Shown here piece after piece: positions 1 through 45,675 of a DNA stretch of 64,000 nucleotides. Below the pieces are notes generated by a model that was given only the letters and a program-made list of their open reading frames with translations, searched no databases and had not been told where the DNA came from. Each line of letters starts with the position of its first letter. Within the stretch, counting starts at the first letter, position 1. A program made the translations under genes and the position numbers. Source of the DNA: Nitrospira sp. GTDB taxonomy: Bacteria; Nitrospirota; Nitrospiria; Nitrospirales; Nitrospiraceae. The stretch is taken from NCBI GenBank assembly GCA_030692565.1, contig JAUYAO010000022.1:124001-188000 (forward strand), read 5' to 3'.

Positions 1-62
1 GCGCCGAGCACCATGTCGCCGCTCACGCCCGAGAAACAATCGAAATGCAACCGTCGTCCCAC
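1..62 (-). CDS. larC: LarC, nickel insertion protein for the nickel-pincer cofactor (5' end only)
   Basis: Only the first 20 codons lie in the window; the gene runs off the left edge. The reading frame gives HFDCFSGVSGDMVLG, the conserved N-terminal motif of LarC (DUF111 family), which inserts nickel into the pyridinium-3,5-bisthiocarboxylic acid mononucleotide cofactor used by lactate racemase-type enzymes. I choose a GTG start at 62 because an AAGGAG ribosome-binding site lies five bases upstream; a TTG at 50 is an alternative. A larB gene lies less than 1 kb away on the same strand, which supports the call. The fragment is too short to exclude a degenerate copy. Confidence 0.72.
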   Translation of the reverse strand, partial: MGRRLHFDCFSGVSGDMVLG

Positions 63-351: not shown

Positions 352-951
352 ATGATAAACAACTGTTCTGAGTCCGCCGCCTTCCACTCACACACTTCCG
401 ACAGCACACAACCAGCCTTGCGAGACCACCGGGCACCAGGACGCGCAGGGCGCTTCGCGACGACGGGCCTGATGCTGAGCTGCATCGTCGGCCTCGTCAT
501 GCTGGCTCCCCTCGACGGCTTTGCCAAAACAAAGCCTCCGCGTGTCCCGCGCCCGGAACCGGAACTCAAAATTCTGGACTTACGCATCGCGCCGACGCCC
601 TATGAGGCAGGCAACGGGCCCTTGGAATTCTCCGTGAACGTCCAGCTCCCGAAAGAGCTGAATGGCGCGACCGTCCTTGAAGTTTCCTCCCTGATCAGTT
701 CCCCCTCGAAAACATCGTTGCGTTTTCTGACGCATCGCCAGGCACTTCAGCCGCAATCAACCAAGCCCGGCGAAGCACGAACGACGCTCCCGATTCGCCT
801 GTCCTGGGACGGGAAAGATCATCGGAAGCAACTGGCTGGCCCGGGGACCTATGCGTACGAAGTCCGCATTAAGTTGCTGACGAACAGTGAGAAAGGGCTG
901 CGCACCATGATGGTGGCCTGGCCTAAACGCGGGGAACTGACCGTCAAGTAG
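352..951 (+). CDS. Exported hypothetical protein
   Basis: This 199-residue protein has a hydrophobic stretch at about residues 41-57 (LSCIVGLVMLAPLDGFA) behind an arginine-rich N-terminus, read as a signal peptide or anchor. The mature part is predicted beta-rich, with PYEAG and RLSWDGKD motifs that recall FlgD-type Ig-like domains used to build extracellular extensions; this is weak. The start at 352 lies seven bases after a -10 box. An ATG at 472 is an alternative but would leave the hydrophobic segment without positive residues. Its last 8 bases overlap the convergent larB 3' end. No specific function can be assigned. Confidence 0.6.
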   Translation: MINNCSESAAFHSHTSDSTQPALRDHRAPGRAGRFATTGLMLSCIVGLVMLAPLDGFAKTKPPRVPRPEPELKILDLRIAPTPYEAGNGPLEFSVNVQLPKELNGATVLEVSSLISSPSKTSLRFLTHRQALQPQSTKPGEARTTLPIRLSWDGKDHRKQLAGPGTYAYEVRIKLLTNSEKGLRTMMVAWPKRGELTVK

Positions 952-1717
952 CTGCCGGCAGACGAGGGGAGTTGCCCATCAGATTGATGCGATGGGCGAG
1001 ACACCCCGCCCCGAATCCGTTATCGATATTCATCACTCCGACACCGGCCGCGCAGGAATTCAGCATCGTGAGCAACGCGGCAAGGCCACCGAAGCTTGCG
1101 CCGTATCCCCGGCTCGTCGGCACCGCCACGACAGGACAGTCGACCAACCCTCCGACCACGCTTGGCAACACGCCATCCATCCCGGCCACCACGATTGCCA
1201 CGCGCGCTTCGAAGAGCCGATCCTTCCGGCCTAACAACCGATGCAGTCCCGCGACGCCCACGTCGTACAGCGTTTCGACATGACTGCCCATCACCTCTGC
1301 CGTCACTCGCGCCTCCTCGGCGACCGGCACGTCCGCGGTCCCGGCGGTCAGAACCAGAATATGCCCTGCACGCCGCGCAGGCTTGCTGTCGATCGCCACG
1401 ATGCGCGCATCGGCATGATAGCGGGCACGGCGATCAAGTTTCATGATGGCTTTGGCGACGGACGGCTCGGCCCGGGTTGCCAGAAACGGCCCGCCCTTCT
1501 TGATCAGCGCGCGGGCAATGGCGACCGACTGCTTCGCCGTCTTGCCTTCGCACAACAGCACTTCAGGAAAGCCCTGACGGAGCGACCGATGATGATCCAG
1601 CGAGGCAAAGCCGAGATTTTCGAACGGCAGGCTGCGCAACCGCTGGACCGCGCGTGCAACGGTCATCCGACCGGTTCGTACATCCGTTAACAGCTGCTCA
1701 ATCCCCTCCGGACTCAT
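944..1717 (-). CDS. larB: LarB, pyridinium-3,5-biscarboxylic acid mononucleotide synthase
   Basis: LarB carboxylates nicotinic acid adenine dinucleotide at C5 and cleaves it to P2CMN, the first step of nickel-pincer nucleotide cofactor synthesis. The 257-residue length fits the family. The C-terminal half is PurE-like, with GMDGVLPSVVGG, PTSRGYGASFGG and NSCAAGVGVMNIDNGFGAG; Cys222 in NSC matches the catalytic cysteine of characterised LarB. The ATG overlaps the gpsA stop (ATGA at 1714-1717), so the two are translationally coupled. larC begins about 0.9 kb downstream on the same strand. No lactate racemase gene (larA) or larE is visible in the window, so the client enzyme is unknown. Confidence 0.9.
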   Translation of the reverse strand: MSPEGIEQLLTDVRTGRMTVARAVQRLRSLPFENLGFASLDHHRSLRQGFPEVLLCEGKTAKQSVAIARALIKKGGPFLATRAEPSVAKAIMKLDRRARYHADARIVAIDSKPARRAGHILVLTAGTADVPVAEEARVTAEVMGSHVETLYDVGVAGLHRLLGRKDRLFEARVAIVVAGMDGVLPSVVGGLVDCPVVAVPTSRGYGASFGGLAALLTMLNSCAAGVGVMNIDNGFGAGCLAHRINLMGNSPRLPAAT

Positions 1718-2733
1718 ATCCGCCCTTTCTCCGGCTTCGCATCCCGCTCCATCAGATCACTCACCGCCTTCCGGCAGGACTTTCCTTCGAACAGCACAGC
1801 ATTGATCTCCTGCGTGATCGGCATGTCGACCTGATGCCGCCGCGCCAAACCCAGCGCCGCCCGAGCCGTGCGGACCCCTTCCGCCACGGCCTGCATCCCA
1901 CCCAAAATAGCATCGAGGGATTCGCCCTGGCCCAATCGCACCCCAACCGTATGGTTCCGGCTGAGCGAACCGGTGCAGGTCAATACCAGATCGCCCACGC
2001 CGGAGAGCCCATATAATGTCCGCGGATCTGCCCCCATCGCCACGCCCAATCGCACGATCTCCGCAAGCCCGCGGGTAATCAGAGCCGCTCGCGCATTGTG
2101 ACCCAGGTCTAACCCGTCGACCACTCCGGCGGCCAGCGCCATGACATTCTTCAGCGCCCCGCCGAGTTGCAATCCGATGAGATCGGTATCGGCATAGACC
2201 CGCAAAGCCGGTGTCATCAAGGCAGTCTGAAACCGTGCCACGAGCTGCGCGTCCCGCCCGGCCAGACAAACCGCCGTCGGCTTCCCGGCACTGAGTTCGC
2301 TGGCGAAGCTCGGCCCGGAGAGTGCCATCAGATATTGCTCCATGGATTCCGGAAGCACCTCGTCCATGACCTGGGTCATCAGTTTTGAGCTGTCTTCCTC
2401 CACTCCTTTGGTGGCACTGATGAGCGGAATCGGACGCGACAGGCAGGAAGCCAGATTGCGCAGGACTTGTCTCGTCACATGGGACGGGACCACAAACAGA
2501 ACACCGTCACGCTGCTCGATCGCCTCGGCCAGAGACGTAGTCGCGGTCAGCGTCCGGGGAAGCGCAACACCCGGAAGAAAGACTCGATTCTCCTGTGTCG
2601 CGTTGATGGAATCGACCACATCGCGTTCATAGGCCCAGAGGCGGATCTCCAGCCCCTTTTCGGCCAGGTGTTTGGCCAGAGCGGTCCCCCAAGCACCCGC
2701 TCCAATGACTCCGAGTGATCTGATCTCCTGCAT
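1714..2733 (-). CDS. gpsA: NAD(P)-dependent glycerol-3-phosphate dehydrogenase
   Basis: It reduces dihydroxyacetone phosphate to sn-glycerol 3-phosphate for phospholipid synthesis in the cytoplasm. The 339 residues are the usual length. The nucleotide-binding motif GAGAWG is at residues 11-16, and the catalytic lysine lies in the GALKNVMALAAGVVDGL segment. The C-terminal part GLSGVGDLVLTCTG is typical of GpsA. The gene is preceded by a near-consensus promoter at 2795-2823 and is coupled to larB downstream. No irregularity seen. Confidence 0.96.
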   Translation of the reverse strand: MQEIRSLGVIGAGAWGTALAKHLAEKGLEIRLWAYERDVVDSINATQENRVFLPGVALPRTLTATTSLAEAIEQRDGVLFVVPSHVTRQVLRNLASCLSRPIPLISATKGVEEDSSKLMTQVMDEVLPESMEQYLMALSGPSFASELSAGKPTAVCLAGRDAQLVARFQTALMTPALRVYADTDLIGLQLGGALKNVMALAAGVVDGLDLGHNARAALITRGLAEIVRLGVAMGADPRTLYGLSGVGDLVLTCTGSLSRNHTVGVRLGQGESLDAILGGMQAVAEGVRTARAALGLARRHQVDMPITQEINAVLFEGKSCRKAVSDLMERDAKPEKGRI

Positions 2734-4461: not shown

Positions 4462-5262
4462 TCAGTCGAGCGCGAGCGTCAAACACTTCGCCGACCCGCC
4501 GGACTTCATAAATTCGTCCAGCGGCAGAGAGTGCGTTCGATATCCACGGGACTGGAGCTGCCGTTCCGTCTCGGGACATCCGGCTGGAAGCACGACATGT
4601 TTCCCCACGCACACCGCATTGCACGCAAATCTCACCGCTTCGCTTTCAGGGACAACGAGACGAGCCCCTTCGGGCACCCGCTCTATGATGACCTCCTGTC
4701 CATCCGTATCGAACGCCGCCGGAAAGTAGAGCAGCTCGCCGCCTGACAGAGGGCAGAAGCACGTATCGAGATGGTAAAACCGTCCGTCGACGAGCTCCAG
4801 GGGAATGATCTCCTGCGTAAAAACGTCGCTGAGCAGCGGGAACACCCGTATGTCCGATCGCTGGCGATAGCCTCCGAACCAGCAATCGGAAAATCCCAGC
4901 AGGTCTCCGGCACCTTCGAAAAAGAACTCGGGCTCCAACGTCACCACGTCATAGCCGGCACTGCGAAACCAGTCCTCGAAATAGGCTTCCTCCCGTTGGC
5001 GCTCGGGATAGCGAAACCGGCTGACGACCGCCCGTCGGCCGACGACCACACCGGCATTGGCGGTAAACACCAAATCCGGCAACCCCGGCACCGGACGCAT
5101 CCGCTCCAGTACGGCTCCAACTTCCCGCTCGAGAACATGCATGAGACCGTGCCACTGCGTGACGGCACTGACATGATCGACCGTGTTTGAACGCCGCATC
5201 CAGGGATTGATCTCATACTCGATGTCGAAATAGTCCGGAGGGCAGACCAACAGCCGGCTCAC
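4462..5262 (-). CDS. Arginine dihydrolase-like guanidino-group modifying enzyme (ArgZ/AgrE N-domain type)
   Basis: This 266-residue protein belongs to the amidinotransferase/DDAH fold. Visible active-site elements are INPWM (Asn19), FTANAG (Asn69), FFEGAGD (Glu116), YHLDTCF (His164) and a nucleophilic cysteine near the end (GGSAKC, Cys260). In cyanobacterial ArgZ/AgrE this domain converts arginine to ornithine, CO2 and two ammonia, and asparagines in these positions distinguish dihydrolases from DDAH and deiminases. Its ATG overlaps the stop of the upstream LOR/SDH gene (ATGA, 5259-5262); in AgrE the two domains are one protein. An ordinary dimethylarginine dimethylaminohydrolase is the main alternative. 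Confidence 0.75.
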   Translation of the reverse strand: MSRLLVCPPDYFDIEYEINPWMRRSNTVDHVSAVTQWHGLMHVLEREVGAVLERMRPVPGLPDLVFTANAGVVVGRRAVVSRFRYPERQREEAYFEDWFRSAGYDVVTLEPEFFFEGAGDLLGFSDCWFGGYRQRSDIRVFPLLSDVFTQEIIPLELVDGRFYHLDTCFCPLSGGELLYFPAAFDTDGQEVIIERVPEGARLVVPESEAVRFACNAVCVGKHVVLPAGCPETERQLQSRGYRTHSLPLDEFMKSGGSAKCLTLALD

Positions 5263-6503
5263 AGGGACCTCCCGAGCTGCCTGGCCAGTTCGTTGAGAAA
5301 AGAGGCCGCATCCATCACCAGGCCAACGGCTTGAAAACTGCCTCGATCGGCGAGCTTCGTGGGAACCGACGCATTGATGTCGACACAGACGGTCGGCACG
5401 GCGGCGGGCAACAGATTACCGGTAGCCACCGCGTGCAGCGTAGAGGCGACCAGGAGCGCCAGCCCGACTCCTGGAATCGCCTCCCGCATGGCCGCTTGGG
5501 CTTGCATCGAATCGGTGATGACACCGGGCAATGGGCCATCGTCTCTGATCGTGCCGGCCATGACCACATGAACCCCGGCCCTGATGCAGGCCGCCATGAT
5601 CCCGCGCTTGATCACGCCGGATTCGACGGCGCCCCGAATGCTGCCGATCGCTCGAATCCGGTTGATGGTTCGCAGATGATGCGCATGCCCGTGCGGAACC
5701 GCATGCCCGACAGTCAACGCGTAGCCTAACGAGGTTCCGTAGAGATCGGCTTCCATATCGTGCGCCGCCAGGGCATTGCCGCAGAACAACACGTGGATGA
5801 ATCCTTCCTCGATCAACCACGTCAGCGCATCCCGCCCGCCGGCATGAATGATCGCGGGCCCTCCGGCCAGCAAGACCTTGGCCTGCCCGCTTCCCGCTCG
5901 CCGCTCGTCGCGAATCAGCTGCATCCGCCGGGCGACATCGGCAATAACGTGGCTATGCGGACGTTCGGGAGAGACCGTGGACTCCATGAAGGCAAAGACA
6001 TCGCGCTCGCGAGGCCGCTGCATCGGAATGACGCGCACGCCGGCCTGGCCGGTGACGATCATGTTTCCCTTGCGGACATCGACCATCGGAACGGTTCTGG
6101 CAGTCATGTGTTGCTGATCTACGGTAATACCCAGGTCCATCTCGACCCGTTGGACATCGAGCCATGTCCCGTTCAGGCGCACTTCGGTCGGCAAATGGGT
6201 GGTGGAATAAAATTCATCGGGGAATATGCCATCGGCTGGGGCCGGCTGCAGGATGCAGTCGGAGTCGCGCTCGACCACGGCGCCGTGCGGTTGAATCGCG
6301 CGCAGGATATGGTTCAGCGTGGCGAGCGTCGGCGCCCGCACGATAATCCGCGCCTGAGACTGATCCTCTCGGGTGCGCCCGATCTCGACCTGATCGAGGT
6401 CAAACGAACCTCCCATCATCAGAATCAGATCCAGGACCTTCGCCAGGATCAGTGAGTCGATAATGTGGCCACGCAGGACGATCGTTTCTTGGAGCTGGGT
6501 CAT
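5259..6503 (-). CDS. LOR/SDH bifunctional-domain protein (TIGR00300 type), probable ornithine cyclodeaminase
   Basis: The 414-residue protein matches the family annotated as LOR/SDH bifunctional conserved domain protein. Segments include GHIIDSLILAKVLDLI near the start and, in the Rossmann-like C-terminal half, VLLAGGPAIIHAGG, LFCGNALAAHDME and GSIRGAVESGVI. In Anabaena AgrE the homologous C-terminal domain turns ornithine into proline, releasing ammonia. The overlap with the dihydrolase-like gene suggests coupled translation and a two-subunit equivalent of AgrE. It follows truD by 58 bases on the same strand and may share its transcript. The name comes from the family; activity here is inferred. 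Confidence 0.8.
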   Translation of the reverse strand: MTQLQETIVLRGHIIDSLILAKVLDLILMMGGSFDLDQVEIGRTREDQSQARIIVRAPTLATLNHILRAIQPHGAVVERDSDCILQPAPADGIFPDEFYSTTHLPTEVRLNGTWLDVQRVEMDLGITVDQQHMTARTVPMVDVRKGNMIVTGQAGVRVIPMQRPRERDVFAFMESTVSPERPHSHVIADVARRMQLIRDERRAGSGQAKVLLAGGPAIIHAGGRDALTWLIEEGFIHVLFCGNALAAHDMEADLYGTSLGYALTVGHAVPHGHAHHLRTINRIRAIGSIRGAVESGVIKRGIMAACIRAGVHVVMAGTIRDDGPLPGVITDSMQAQAAMREAIPGVGLALLVASTLHAVATGNLLPAAVPTVCVDINASVPTKLADRGSFQAVGLVMDAASFLNELARQLGRSL

Positions 6504-6561: not shown

Positions 6562-7656
6562 CTACCATGCACTCACAGCGCCTCCTCCTTCCTCTTGCCC
6601 AGTGCCCCTCGCCTCGTGTCCCTCGCCAGCTTTCATGACCTCCCGCAAGACACTCGTCGCGTAGGCGCCGGGGGGCAGCGCAAACGTGAGGGTGAGCGCC
6701 GTCCCGTCGAGCGCCCACTCCAATTCAGCCAACGGAACACGCAGGGCCCGCCGTTCACCGCGAAAACCACAGTCTTTGGCTGCCGCAACCAGCGCCTCCT
6801 GCGTCGTGCCCGCCTCACCCACGACCGCTTGTTCGATCACGCCCGGCTCTCCTTCGGCCCAGGACACGCGCGAGCCGAATAAGAGGCCTGTCGGACTGAT
6901 CTCGAAACAGTCGGCGCGAATCTGTTCTTTCTCCGCATCCTCGACTAAAAAACAGGCGCCGTTCTGCGACTTCATCGCCCAATCGCCGACGGACACCCGA
7001 TCGATCCGATCGATGCGCCTGGCCAGAATAAGATTGAAGAGATAGGACTGGTACGTGTTCAAATACCACATCCGTTTGGCCCGACTCATCTTCTCGCGTC
7101 GACGGGCATCTTGCAGCAGGGCGGCGCCGACTTCATGGTTGTCCCCGCGTTTTCCCTGGCGCTGCGGACCGAAGTAATTCGGCACGCCGCGGCGTCCCAG
7201 CTCGGCGAGGATGGCCGGCACCGACTCTGCCGCATGCGAGGCCACGTCACGAACCACCAGGCGAAACCGGTTCCCCGCATGATGGCCGGTCCGCAAACGA
7301 TTGCGGTGCCGTCCCAGCACCTCCACCTTTAGCACCCGTTCGTCGATCGCCAGCCGGGAGATCCGGTCTTGATCCACACCCTGGACCGAGACCATTTGAG
7401 TCGTCACCGCGCGCGCATCTTTCAATCCGGCGACCCCGATGGCTTGGGCTTTCACTCCCAACACCGACGAAAAGTTCTTCACCAGATCCGGCGTCGACAA
7501 TCCGCGCTTGGTCACGCTCAGATACAGATGCTCGCCGTCTCCGCACGGGAGATACAACGGACGCTCTTCGACTTGAAAATCCTCGTGGGTCGCCCGCATC
7601 ACCCCGCCGATGCCGGGGATTGAGGCGGTAAGAAACGGCTCGGCTTGTGTATTCAC
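6562..7656 (-). CDS. truD: tRNA pseudouridine(13) synthase TruD
   Basis: TruD isomerises uridine 13 in tRNA-Glu and others to pseudouridine. The catalytic aspartate is Asp80 in AGLKDARA, the same number as in E. coli. Other hallmarks are PGIGG, FQVEE, HRNRLRTGHHAGNRF and NYFGPQRQG. The start is a GTG at 7656, because an in-frame stop lies two codons upstream. The last 20 or so residues (EGHEARGTGQEEGGG region) are low complexity and unlike the family. They look as if the frame has run into a CTCGC-rich spacer sequence of the kind seen in several nearby gaps. Confidence 0.93.
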   Translation of the reverse strand: MNTQAEPFLTASIPGIGGVMRATHEDFQVEERPLYLPCGDGEHLYLSVTKRGLSTPDLVKNFSSVLGVKAQAIGVAGLKDARAVTTQMVSVQGVDQDRISRLAIDERVLKVEVLGRHRNRLRTGHHAGNRFRLVVRDVASHAAESVPAILAELGRRGVPNYFGPQRQGKRGDNHEVGAALLQDARRREKMSRAKRMWYLNTYQSYLFNLILARRIDRIDRVSVGDWAMKSQNGACFLVEDAEKEQIRADCFEISPTGLLFGSRVSWAEGEPGVIEQAVVGEAGTTQEALVAAAKDCGFRGERRALRVPLAELEWALDGTALTLTFALPPGAYATSVLREVMKAGEGHEARGTGQEEGGGAVSAW

Positions 7657-40579: not shown

Positions 40580-40846
40580 CTATCTCGTTCCAACCGGCCG
40601 CAAGGGCGGCAACTCTTCATCCTGCCCTTTGATCTCGCCCGGGGCGACCTGATCCGAAGATGCTGCTGGATTAACTGCCTCTTGAGTCTCTCCTAGTTTT
40701 TTCAACTCCATCTTCTGTCTGGCAATCGTCGGATTGACGCCCACGTTTTCCGGAGCAATGGGAGCACCCACGACGCCGCAACCCGTTACAACAGTCAATA
40801 CGGTCAGGCTCACACCGGCAAGAAACATGTCACTCGTTTGTATCAT
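40580..40846 (-). CDS. Small lipoprotein upstream of lysA (LptM/LppL-like candidate)
   Basis: The 88-residue protein has a signal peptide ending TVVTGC and a mature start CGVVGAPIAPEN, a short Gly/Pro-rich stretch directly after the lipidated cysteine. Small lipoproteins of this kind with a CGxxGP-type start lie next to lysA or dapF in many Gram-negative bacteria. In E. coli the equivalent (LptM, formerly YifL) assists the LPS transporter LptD. That link is inferred from position and the lipobox region only. The ATG overlaps the argH stop (ATGA, 40843-40846), so it is co-expressed with arginine synthesis. Confidence 0.72.
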   Translation of the reverse strand: MIQTSDMFLAGVSLTVLTVVTGCGVVGAPIAPENVGVNPTIARQKMELKKLGETQEAVNPAASSDQVAPGEIKGQDEELPPLRPVGTR

Positions 40847-42255
40847 GCCAACAACTTCGCCAATTCCTTCAGGCGGCGAACCACTTGCAACCTGGCAGTT
40901 CCACCAATCTGCGCCTTCCGGTCGATGGCCCCCTGCACCGTAAGCCGATCCAGCACGGATTTCTCGAAGCGAGGCGAAAACACGCAGAGCTCTTTGACGG
41001 TGAGTTCGGAGAGTTCGCGCCCGGCATCCAAGGCCCACCGGACGACCCGACCGGTGATCGCGTGCGCTTCCCGAAATGGTACACCCTTGATCACCAAATA
41101 GTCAGCCAGCTCCGTTGCCAACATCCCGCCGCCCGTGAGGGCGCGGGTCAGCGCGGCCCGGTCCACGTTGAGCCGGCGCATCAACTCCGTCATGACTTCG
41201 ACGCAGTCTTGCGTGGTGTCGAGCGCGTCGAACAGCGCCGGTTTATCTTCCTGCAAATCGCGGTTGTAACTGAGCGGCAAGGCCTTCAACGTCGTCATCA
41301 ATCCGATGAGATGACCGTAGACGCGGCCGGTCTTCCCGCGCACCAACTCTGGCACATCGGGATTCTTTTTCTGGGGCATCATGCTGCTGCCGGTGCAGAA
41401 TCCGTCCGGCAGATCGACAAAATGAAATTCCTGCGTGGCCCAGAGAATGAGTTCTTCGCTCATGCGCGATAAGTGCATCATGACGATCGCTAACGCGGAT
41501 GCCACTTCAATCATGAAGTCGCGGTCGGACACCGCGTCGAGGCTATTTTGCGTCACCGCAGGGAAGTCTAATAGCGCCGCCGTATAGAGGCGATCCACCG
41601 GATAATTCGATCCCGCCAGCGCCCCGGAACCCAGCGGCATCACGTTGACCCGCGTCCGTGCATCCGCGAGACGCGCCTTATCGCGCAGAAACATTTCCAC
41701 GTACGCCAGCAGATGATGGGCCAACAACACGGGTTGCGCGCGCTGCAAGTGCGTGTAGCCCGGCATCGGGACATCAAGATGTTCCGTTGCCTGCGTCACC
41801 AATACCCGTTGGAATTCCGTCAGCCGTCCGATCAGAACCGTGAGCTGATCACGCACATAGAGCCGCACATCGAGCGCCACCTGATCGTTCCGGCTGCGGC
41901 CCGTATGCAATTTGCCGCCGACCGGACCGATCAACTCGGTCAATCGGCGCTCGATCGCCATGTGAATATCTTCGTCTTCCGGCAGAAACGTGAACCGTTC
42001 CCGCTCCAGTTCGTGCTGAACCAATTGCAGACCACGGACGATTGTCGCGGTCTCGCGACGACTGAGCACACCGGCCTTGGCCAGCGTCTGGCAATGGGCG
42101 ATGCTGCCGCGGATATCGTGCGCGTACAACCGCTTATCCACCGCAATGGAACGGGTGAAGGCTTCGACCAACCGATCGGTGGGCTCGCGAAACCGTCCCG
42201 CCCATGCTTTGCTCGGCTTGCCTGCCCCTGCTTTGCCGGATCTCCGACTGGCCAT
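40843..42255 (-). CDS. argH: Argininosuccinate lyase
   Basis: ArgH splits argininosuccinate into arginine and fumarate, the last step of arginine synthesis. The 470-residue protein carries AWAGRFREPTDRLVEAF, IHMAIERRLTELIG, TGRSRNDQVALDVRL, MPGYTHLQRAQPVLLAHHL and the fumarase-superfamily signature GSSMMPQKKNPDVPELVRG with the catalytic serine. Its start overlaps the argG stop by one base (TAATG). Confidence 0.97.
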   Translation of the reverse strand: MASRRSGKAGAGKPSKAWAGRFREPTDRLVEAFTRSIAVDKRLYAHDIRGSIAHCQTLAKAGVLSRRETATIVRGLQLVQHELERERFTFLPEDEDIHMAIERRLTELIGPVGGKLHTGRSRNDQVALDVRLYVRDQLTVLIGRLTEFQRVLVTQATEHLDVPMPGYTHLQRAQPVLLAHHLLAYVEMFLRDKARLADARTRVNVMPLGSGALAGSNYPVDRLYTAALLDFPAVTQNSLDAVSDRDFMIEVASALAIVMMHLSRMSEELILWATQEFHFVDLPDGFCTGSSMMPQKKNPDVPELVRGKTGRVYGHLIGLMTTLKALPLSYNRDLQEDKPALFDALDTTQDCVEVMTELMRRLNVDRAALTRALTGGGMLATELADYLVIKGVPFREAHAITGRVVRWALDAGRELSELTVKELCVFSPRFEKSVLDRLTVQGAIDRKAQIGGTARLQVVRRLKELAKLLA

Positions 42256-43469
42256 TAGGACTTCGCTTTCCGCCTCTGTGCCCGGATCTTCAACCGCAGC
42301 GCGTTCAACCGGATGAAACCCTCGGCATCTTTCTGGTTGTACACATCGTCTTCTTCAAACGTCGCAATATCCAGCCGGTAGAGGGAATTCTTCGACTTCC
42401 GGCCGGCGAGAGTGCAACTCCCCTTATAGAGCTTCACGCGGGCCGTCCCGGAAACATCTCTTTGCGCTTCGTCGATCGCTACTTGCATCATTTCCCGTTC
42501 CGGGCTGAACCAGTATCCGTTGTAAATCAGATCGGCAAACCGCGGAATCAGGCTGTCACGGAAGTGCAGCACCTCCCGATCCATCGTGAGCGATTCGAGT
42601 CCACGATGCGCGACGTGCAGAATCGTCCCGCCCGGCGTTTCGTACACACCACGGGACTTCATCCCGACATAGCGGTTTTCGACCAGATCGACCCGGCCTA
42701 TCCCATGGGCCCCGCCCAGCTTGTTGAGGTGCGCGAGCAGCTTTGCCGGGCTCATCTTTTTGCCGTCAACGGCGACCGGGTTTCCCAGCTCATACTCGAT
42801 TTCGACTTCCAGCGGCTTGTTGGGCGCCTTTTCAGGAGACACCGTCATCTGGAAAATTTCATCCGGCGGAGACTTCCAGGGATCTTCAAGGATGCCGCCC
42901 TCGTAACTCACATGAAAAAGATTGAGGTCCATACTGTAGGGCTTGGCTTTCGTCGCCGTCACGGGAATGCCGTGCTTGTCGGCATACTCGATACATTCGC
43001 GCCGTGATCGCAGGGTCCACTCGCGCCAGGGCGCAATGATCTTCAGCCCTGGAGCCAGCGCCATATAGGTCAGCTCGAACCGGACCTGATCGTTGCCCTT
43101 CCCGGTCGCGCCATGCGACACCGCCTCGGCCCCCTCCTGCAACGCGATTTCGGCCTGGCGGCGGGCGATGAGCGGCCGCGCAATCGATGTACCCAGGAGA
43201 TAGCAACCTTCGTACATTGCGTTCCCACGCAACATCGGAAACACGTAGTCCTTCACGAAGGTCTCGCGCAGGTCCTCGACATAGACCTTCTTCACACCCA
43301 GCTTCTTGGCTTTCGCCTTGATCGCCTGCAGGTCTTCGCCCTGGCCGAGATCCGCACAAAACGCAATCACTTCCGCCTGATAAGTTTCCTGCAACCACTT
43401 CAAGATGACTGAGGTATCAAGCCCGCCGGAATACGCGAGGACAATTTTCTTGATCGATGTCTGTTTCAT
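42255..43469 (-). CDS. argG: Argininosuccinate synthase
   Basis: ArgG joins citrulline and aspartate with ATP. The 404-residue protein begins with the PP-loop [15 protein letters not shown], then [49 protein letters not shown] and [20 protein letters not shown]. These match bacterial type 1 ArgG. It sits nine bases after argF and overlaps argH by one base. Confidence 0.97.
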
Positions 43470-43478
43470 GATGAGTGC

Positions 43479-44456
<978 letters not shown>

Positions 44457-44457
44457 A

Positions 44458-45675
44458 TCAGTGCGGCTGATCCTTTTCCGCCATCGTCCGTTGATTGAAG
44501 ATGGACGATAACGTCTCCAGGACGCGATCGATTTCCGCCTGGGAAATGATGAGCGGCGGCACAAACCGCAGCACCCGTTCACTGGTGGCATTCACCAGCA
44601 CGCCGCGGCTCAAACAGTCCGCCACGACGGCTTTCGCATCAATCTCCACTTCCAGGCCCTGTAACAACCCCAATCCTCGAACGTCCCGCACCGCGCGATG
44701 GCGGTCTTTGAAGTCGGCCAGCCCTTTAGCCAGATAATCCCCCATGCGCCGGGCCTGTTCAAGCACACGCCCTTCGATCAAGATCCGACAGACCGCGAGC
44801 CCCGCAGCGCAGGCCAACGGATTGCCGCCGAATGTCGAGGCATGCGACCCGGCCGTGAAGACTGCAGCGACCGCCTCTTTGGCCAAACAGGCGCCGATCG
44901 GCATCCCGCCGCCGAGCCCCTTGGCCAGGGTCATGATGTCGGGCTCCACGCCCAGTTGCTCATAGGCAAACAACGTCCCGGTCCGCCCCATTCCGGTCTG
45001 GACTTCGTCGAAAATCAGGAGGATATCCTTCTGCGTGCACAGCTCCCGCAGATTCTTCAGATAGGCTTGATCGGCGACATGCACGCCCCCCTCACCCTGA
45101 ATCGGCTCCAACATGATCGCCGTGGTCTTCTCCGTGACGAGCGATTCAATCGCCGCAAAATCGTTGAACGGCGCATAGACAAACCCCGGAACGAGCGGCT
45201 CAAAGCCTTTCTGCACCTTCTCCTGGCCGGTCGCCGTCAGCGTCGCCATCGTGCGGCCGTGGAAGGAATTCTTCATCGTGATGATCTCGAACCGGTTCGC
45301 GCCGTGCTTCTCATGCCCGTAGCGCCGCGCCAGCTTAATCGCCGCTTCATTCGCCTCCGCGCCGCTGTTGCAGAAAAAGACCCGGTCGGCGCACGAATGA
45401 TCGACCAGCATTTGCGCGAGTCTGACCTGCGGCTCCGTGTAGTAGAGGTTCGACACATGGATCAGCTGGGCCGCCTGGCGCTGGATCGCCTGTACCAGAT
45501 CCGGATGGCCATGCCCCAAAATATTGACCGCGATGCCACCGACAAAGTCGATGTACTCCCGGCCTTCCATGTCGTAGACCTTGGCTCCACGCCCCCGCAC
45601 GATTGAAATCGGCTGACGCGCATAGGTTTGCATCAAATACTTGGCTGCGTAATCTTTAAGTTCCTCTGTCGGCAT
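44458..45675 (-). CDS. argD: Acetylornithine aminotransferase
   Basis: ArgD transaminates N-acetylglutamate semialdehyde to N-acetylornithine. The 405-residue class III PLP enzyme carries GRGAKVYDMEGREYIDFVGG, FCNSGAEANEAAIKLAR, NSFHGRTMATLTATGQEK, EPIQGEGGVHVAD, IFDEVQTGMGRTG and the lysine in TLAKGLGGGMPIGA. ArgD often also acts as succinyl-diaminopimelate aminotransferase, but dapL makes that unnecessary here. It is the first gene of the eight-gene operon and has a promoter just upstream. Confidence 0.96.
   Translation of the reverse strand: MPTEELKDYAAKYLMQTYARQPISIVRGRGAKVYDMEGREYIDFVGGIAVNILGHGHPDLVQAIQRQAAQLIHVSNLYYTEPQVRLAQMLVDHSCADRVFFCNSGAEANEAAIKLARRYGHEKHGANRFEIITMKNSFHGRTMATLTATGQEKVQKGFEPLVPGFVYAPFNDFAAIESLVTEKTTAIMLEPIQGEGGVHVADQAYLKNLRELCTQKDILLIFDEVQTGMGRTGTLFAYEQLGVEPDIMTLAKGLGGGMPIGACLAKEAVAAVFTAGSHASTFGGNPLACAAGLAVCRILIEGRVLEQARRMGDYLAKGLADFKDRHRAVRDVRGLGLLQGLEVEIDAKAVVADCLSRGVLVNATSERVLRFVPPLIISQAEIDRVLETLSSIFNQRTMAEKDQPH

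Follow-up and report, generated by a model that had tools for sequence, protein, structure and literature searches.

The window analysed here, a 64,000-nucleotide stretch of a Nitrospira sp. contig, carries near one end two overlapping open reading frames on the minus strand. The upstream frame (6503-5259, ATG start, 414 residues) matches TIGR00300, the ornithine cyclodeaminase family (OCD), and the downstream frame (5262-4462, GTG start, 266 residues) encodes an arginine dihydrolase homologue (ADH), assigned by its match to NF052232, by identity and by its position in a tree. Both frames lie where the first-pass annotation had placed them, with OCD preceding ADH. The four-base overlap that it described (5259..5262, minus strand) is also present, but it reads GTGA rather than ATGA since ADH begins with GTG. 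Ribosome-binding-like sequences precede both starts (GAGAGG before the ATG of OCD and GGGAGG before the GTG of ADH), and the sequence allows a 4-base OCD/ADH overlap at 25 of 30 Nitrospirota loci, a recurrence that argues for maintained coupling and against an accident.

Upstream of OCD, on the same strand and across a gap of 58 bases, lies truD (6562..7656, minus strand; TIGR00094 over cut-off), and on the other side of the pair is gpsA (1714..2733, minus strand; NF000942 over cut-off). Both are conserved neighbours by synteny, and the order truD-OCD-ADH-gpsA recurs in a Nitrospira defluvii MAG (L146), in support of the first-pass annotation's suggestion that the host is Nitrospira-like. gpsA overlaps by 4 bases with larB (944..1717, minus strand), a gene of nickel-pincer nucleotide (NPN) biosynthesis that scores 281 bits on NF033503 (cut-off 175). 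The 5' end of larC follows at 1..62, again on the minus strand; the whole gene, an open reading frame over the TIGR00299 cut-off with 416 bits on PF01969, extends beyond the window (C22:122851-124062). These two lar genes downstream of OCD/ADH had gone unnoticed in the earlier annotation. Scans for promoters and terminators yielded little more than shuffled sequence did, and the single good promoter-like site (2823-2795) stands in front of gpsA, so that gpsA-larB is probably a transcription unit separate from truD-OCD-ADH.

Family placement and predicted function of the pair

OCD scores 460 bits on TIGR00300 over residues 7-410, above the cut-off of 410.8, and contains the three Pfam domains of the C-terminal half of ArgZ. 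Its identity is 41% with the OCD part of AgrE and 45% with MMP1218, a stand-alone archaeal enzyme reported to convert ornithine to proline (PMC10809761). The polar residues that MMP1218 and AgrE hold in common (H220, H248, H273, H275, H276, H357, C373, K383, D386 and R387) are all kept in OCD. An AlphaFold model (mean pLDDT 86, built from 26 sequences) matches the MMP1218 structure (3c2q) with a Z of 41, with deoxyhypusine synthase as the next-nearest fold. Unlike MMP1218, the OCD of the window is paired with a predicted arginine dihydrolase, in an organism that also has proA and proC.

Over its own length ADH shares 45% identity with both ArgZ and AgrE, compared with 36-39% for a pair of actinobacterial 'dimethylargininases' and 21% for Photobacterium DDAH. 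Its scores of 286.9 bits on the arginine dihydrolase model NF052232 (cut-off 450), 238.3 bits on the Mycobacterium tuberculosis (Mtb)-type dimethylargininase model NF045659 (cut-off 300) and 18 bits on the arginine deiminase model TIGR01078 (cut-off 489) all fall short of the respective cut-offs. The 286.9 bits of ADH, like the 460 bits of OCD on TIGR00300, are far more than chance would give. As no Nitrospirota homologue in the sampled genomes passes the NF052232 cut-off, automatic naming will probably miss ADH. The catalytic positions of ArgZ are occupied in ADH by N19, N69, E116/D120, H164 and C260. The two asparagines are thus numbered correctly in the first-pass annotation, but their use as a dihydrolase signature fails because both also occur in the actinobacterial 'dimethylargininases', while DDAH-type sequences carry Asp at the second position. 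The partner OCD, which uses ornithine, is a stronger argument than the Asn pair for ornithine as the product of ADH. In a quick maximum-likelihood tree of 104 proteins, computed without bootstraps and with long outgroup branches, ADH joins ArgZ and AgrE in a 95-row clade (SH-aLRT 95) that leaves the actinobacterial, haloarchaeal and DDAH branches outside; the phylogeny proposed as a check on dihydrolase identity hence places ADH with ArgZ/AgrE and not with DDAH.

The homology and family placement of the two proteins, their conserved residues, the coupling of the genes and their wide conservation make it likely that OCD and ADH form a translationally coupled two-protein pathway of arginine catabolism leading to proline and ammonia; the enzyme activities, and the coupling in the cell, are what we infer from them. 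At its guanidine-modifying superfamily site (Cys260/His164) ADH would hydrolyse arginine, yielding ornithine, CO2 and two molecules of ammonia, and OCD would then turn ornithine into proline with release of a third ammonia. The two would work as cyanobacterial AgrE/ArgZ does, though as distinct proteins and with the OCD gene in front; AgrE is described as releasing three ammonium per arginine en route to proline (PMC8262935). Both proA and proC are over cut-off in the genome of the window and in nearly all of the class, so proline synthesis should not depend on OCD, and a role in catabolism with release of ammonia is thereby favoured. Such a pathway would give Nitrospira a route for ammonia release from arginine. 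Two points speak against it: the ADH score lies well below the dihydrolase cut-off (287 versus 450 bits), and ADH homologues stand alone, with no OCD, in one Nitrospirota family (f13), so the pair is not always tied.

A widespread two-gene form of AgrE/ArgZ

AgrE (Alr4995, Anabaena) and ArgZ (Sll1336, Synechocystis) are homologous to the window's proteins over the full length of both parts (to AgrE, 45% for ADH and 41% for OCD), share the same conserved residues and have the same predicted net conversion of arginine to proline, three ammonia and CO2. They are encoded by one bifunctional gene, however, whereas the pair described here consists of two genes with OCD first and has larB and larC as neighbours, and the cyanobacterial fusion lies far from the window's proteins in both trees. 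The model for bifunctional ArgZ/AgrE (NF052231; 1025 bits on one polypeptide) is accordingly not reached by the two frames, which score 282 and 371 bits.

TIGR00300 is over cut-off in 36 of the 148 sampled Nitrospirota genomes, and in every one of these 36 an ADH homologue adjoins OCD on the same strand. A scan of a species genome collection, which favours relatives of the query and is no census, found OCD immediately ahead of ADH, in the same orientation, at 49 of 80 loci among the matches listed (with a few OCD genes cut by contig ends). Among those matches the arrangement occurs in Planctomycetota, Verrucomicrobiota, Chloroflexota, Omnitrophota, Nitrospinota, Methylomirabilota, Myxococcota, Armatimonadota and Nitrospirota, and no OCD-ADH fusion was seen at any of the 80 loci listed. 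Full-length TIGR00300 was present somewhere in the genome in 47 of 50 genomes from these loci. Two separate genes with OCD in front are thus a widespread form, and among the sampled loci it is the cyanobacterial fusion that looks exceptional. The earlier proposal of a split AgrE-like system yielding proline and three ammonia is supported by homology (the ADH tree and the 45% identity of OCD to MMP1218), but the split and the reversed order are no peculiarity of this organism: the pair represents a known system in split form, nothing unusual for its lineage and frequent outside it. What makes the find useful is how widely the split form occurs, together with its tie to NPN genes. The arginine dihydrolase/OCD pathway would no longer be a speciality of cyanobacteria but one that is common among bacteria, and with two genes ADH and OCD can each be studied alone.

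Several loci depart from the common pattern. Stand-alone ADH homologues occur in genomes lacking full-length TIGR00300 (L059, L060 and L061, all of family f13, and L052 of genome G131). A Nitrospinota MAG (L125:5718-7786) carries an OCD-ADH pair that the ADH tree and the OCD tree alike place within the Nitrospirota clade, as a result of either gene transfer or a binning error. In a genus member of 2.0 Mb (L062; G105 contig C2), gpsA, larB and larC are kept and OCD/ADH was not found; the contig stops just past gpsA, so that loss of the pair and an assembly gap are indistinguishable.

Nickel-pincer nucleotide genes and the cofactor of OCD

LarB, LarC and LarE make the nickel-pincer nucleotide, and about 15% of genomes, many of them cyanobacterial, have larB, larC and larE without larA, which has been taken to indicate a user other than LarA (PMC11796402). 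The genome of the window conforms to this pattern, as larB, larC and larE are all present (larE elsewhere in the genome), and larA was found in 0 of the 15 genomes of the genus sample; it differs from the published cases in that the genes beside larB and larC suggest a user, the TIGR00300 OCD. Among the 36 OCD-bearing Nitrospirota genomes, larC is present in all and larA in only 11, leaving 25 without it. In 30 of the 36, larB lies at most 5 kb from ADH on the same strand; all 30 belong to one family and thus represent one inherited arrangement. A case separate from Nitrospirota is found in a planctomycete (L104), where larC is 1.8 kb from ADH.

The Verrucomicrobia that carry the pair offer a counterpart. 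LarB is over cut-off in 0 of 15 of their genomes versus 24 of 29 others, and larC was absent from the four Verrucomicrobia genomes searched for it. Their OCD-like proteins have lost residues that are invariant or nearly so outside Verrucomicrobia and present in the window's OCD: all 13 such proteins have Asn in place of His275, 11 lack His248, 10 lack Lys383 and 9 lack His220, with H248Y and K383R among the changes. Since Verrucomicrobia form one clade in the OCD tree, this amounts to one evolutionary event and not fifteen. Two genomes (L114 and L122) speak against a link of OCD to NPN, as their OCD residues are intact and neither larB nor larC was found. As an observation in its own right, ADH accompanied by a residue-depleted OCD-like partner in the absence of LarB is seen in Verrucomicrobia L117-L119, L121, L123, L127, L129, L133, L136, L138-L140 and L145.

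From these sequence comparisons we lean towards the view that OCD uses the NPN which LarB, LarC and LarE produce, with larB and larC lying close to the pair; the NCBIfam name of TIGR00300 is already 'ornithine cyclodeaminase, nickel-pincer nucleotide-dependent'. In searches covering mainly the open literature, we found no paper showing NPN dependence of OCD and no report of an OCD-ADH system in Nitrospira. A somewhat less probable, but substantial, alternative keeps the same arginine-to-proline pathway and has OCD use NAD+ in place of NPN, with the lar neighbours as an old, stable gene order serving another enzyme. The crystal structure of AgrE with ornithine and NAD+ (6lrg) favours this alternative, as does the fold of the OCD model, for which deoxyhypusine synthase, the nearest match after MMP1218, is an NAD+ enzyme. 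The restriction of larB within 5 kb of ADH to one family and the presence of larC without a TIGR00300 OCD in most Nitrospirota point the same way. The absence of LarA from the fold matches listed for OCD carries no weight for either view. Against it stand the co-occurrence of larC with every Nitrospirota OCD where larA is mostly missing, the NCBIfam assignment, the loss of conserved His and Lys residues of OCD in larB-less Verrucomicrobia and the independent larC neighbour in the planctomycete.

If NPN dependence of OCD holds, Nitrospira would turn arginine into proline and ammonia with a nickel organometallic cofactor supplied by neighbouring genes. The larB and larC neighbours, together with the lack of larA, make it testable which proteins use NPN in genomes without LarA. 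We tentatively extend this to a broader proposal, for which the chances seem a little short of even: AgrE would have the split OCD-ADH as its widespread and probably older form, and in bacteria that lack larA the missing user of NPN other than LarA would be this OCD.

The lar genes of Nitrospirota extend beyond the OCD loci. The genome of the window (G000) has three LarB homologues over cut-off (C22:124983-125600, C43:42122-42748 and C8:80244-80852), a single larC and no larA, and many other Nitrospirota genomes have larC with neither larA nor a full TIGR00300 protein. Several of them (e.g. G136:C25:11001-11201) give weak partial matches to TIGR00300 positions ~184-257, the region at which the window's OCD itself weakly matches the NCBIfam GSU2086 family. 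Proteins with such partial matches could be other NPN users.

Alternative roles of ADH and OCD

The window also contains an arginine biosynthesis row, argD-argF-argG-argH (40843..45675, minus strand; NCBIfam models over cut-off), in which argF-argG-argH spans 40843-44591 with argD adjoining and all genes are intact. The first-pass annotation rightly noted a complete argF-argG-argH row, which lies about 36 kb from the pair (37 kb in that annotation), and proposed from it an ornithine-ammonia cycle; no linkage of argFGH to OCD/ADH was found in the window, and the row, as ordinary biosynthesis of the kind that any arginine prototroph would have, is no evidence for the cycle, which is possible in this organism and has no specific support. 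In such a cycle ADH would return ornithine to argF, argG and argH, and OCD would be merely a drain. Every enzyme is present, and separate proteins could free ornithine more readily than a fusion does. Yet arginine synthesis requires argFGH anyway, OCD is translationally coupled upstream of ADH, and the cyanobacterial cycle is itself described as a side activity of the catabolic route to proline (PMC8262935), which together with the distance of the arg row makes the cycle improbable as the main role of the pair.

Slightly less probable still is that OCD mainly makes proline from biosynthetic ornithine, with ADH incidental. The precedent is methanogens, in which the stand-alone archaeal TIGR00300 protein MMP1218 fills the proline pathway (PMC10809761); here, however, proC and proA are present, including in G105, the genus member in which the pair was not found.

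That ADH is instead a DDAH- or deiminase-type enzyme producing citrulline is very unlikely, for although ADH reaches 238 bits with the dimethylargininase model of the Mtb type, a group that shares both asparagines, it reaches more with the dihydrolase model (287 bits), misses the dimethylargininase cut-off, clusters with ArgZ/AgrE and has a partner, OCD, that takes ornithine and not citrulline.

The actinobacterial 'dimethylargininases' (ddaH, Mtb type, NF045659) resemble ADH in having both asparagines and the catalytic Cys and His, and differ from it by their 36-39% identity, their separate clade and the lack of an OCD partner. The mycobacterial gene likewise overlaps one for an ornithine-using enzyme in a similar way: at L153:2908-5024 the ddaH-annotated gene overlaps rocD (ornithine aminotransferase) by 4 bases. 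This ddaH-annotated protein has both asparagines and may act as an arginine dihydrolase supplying rocD.
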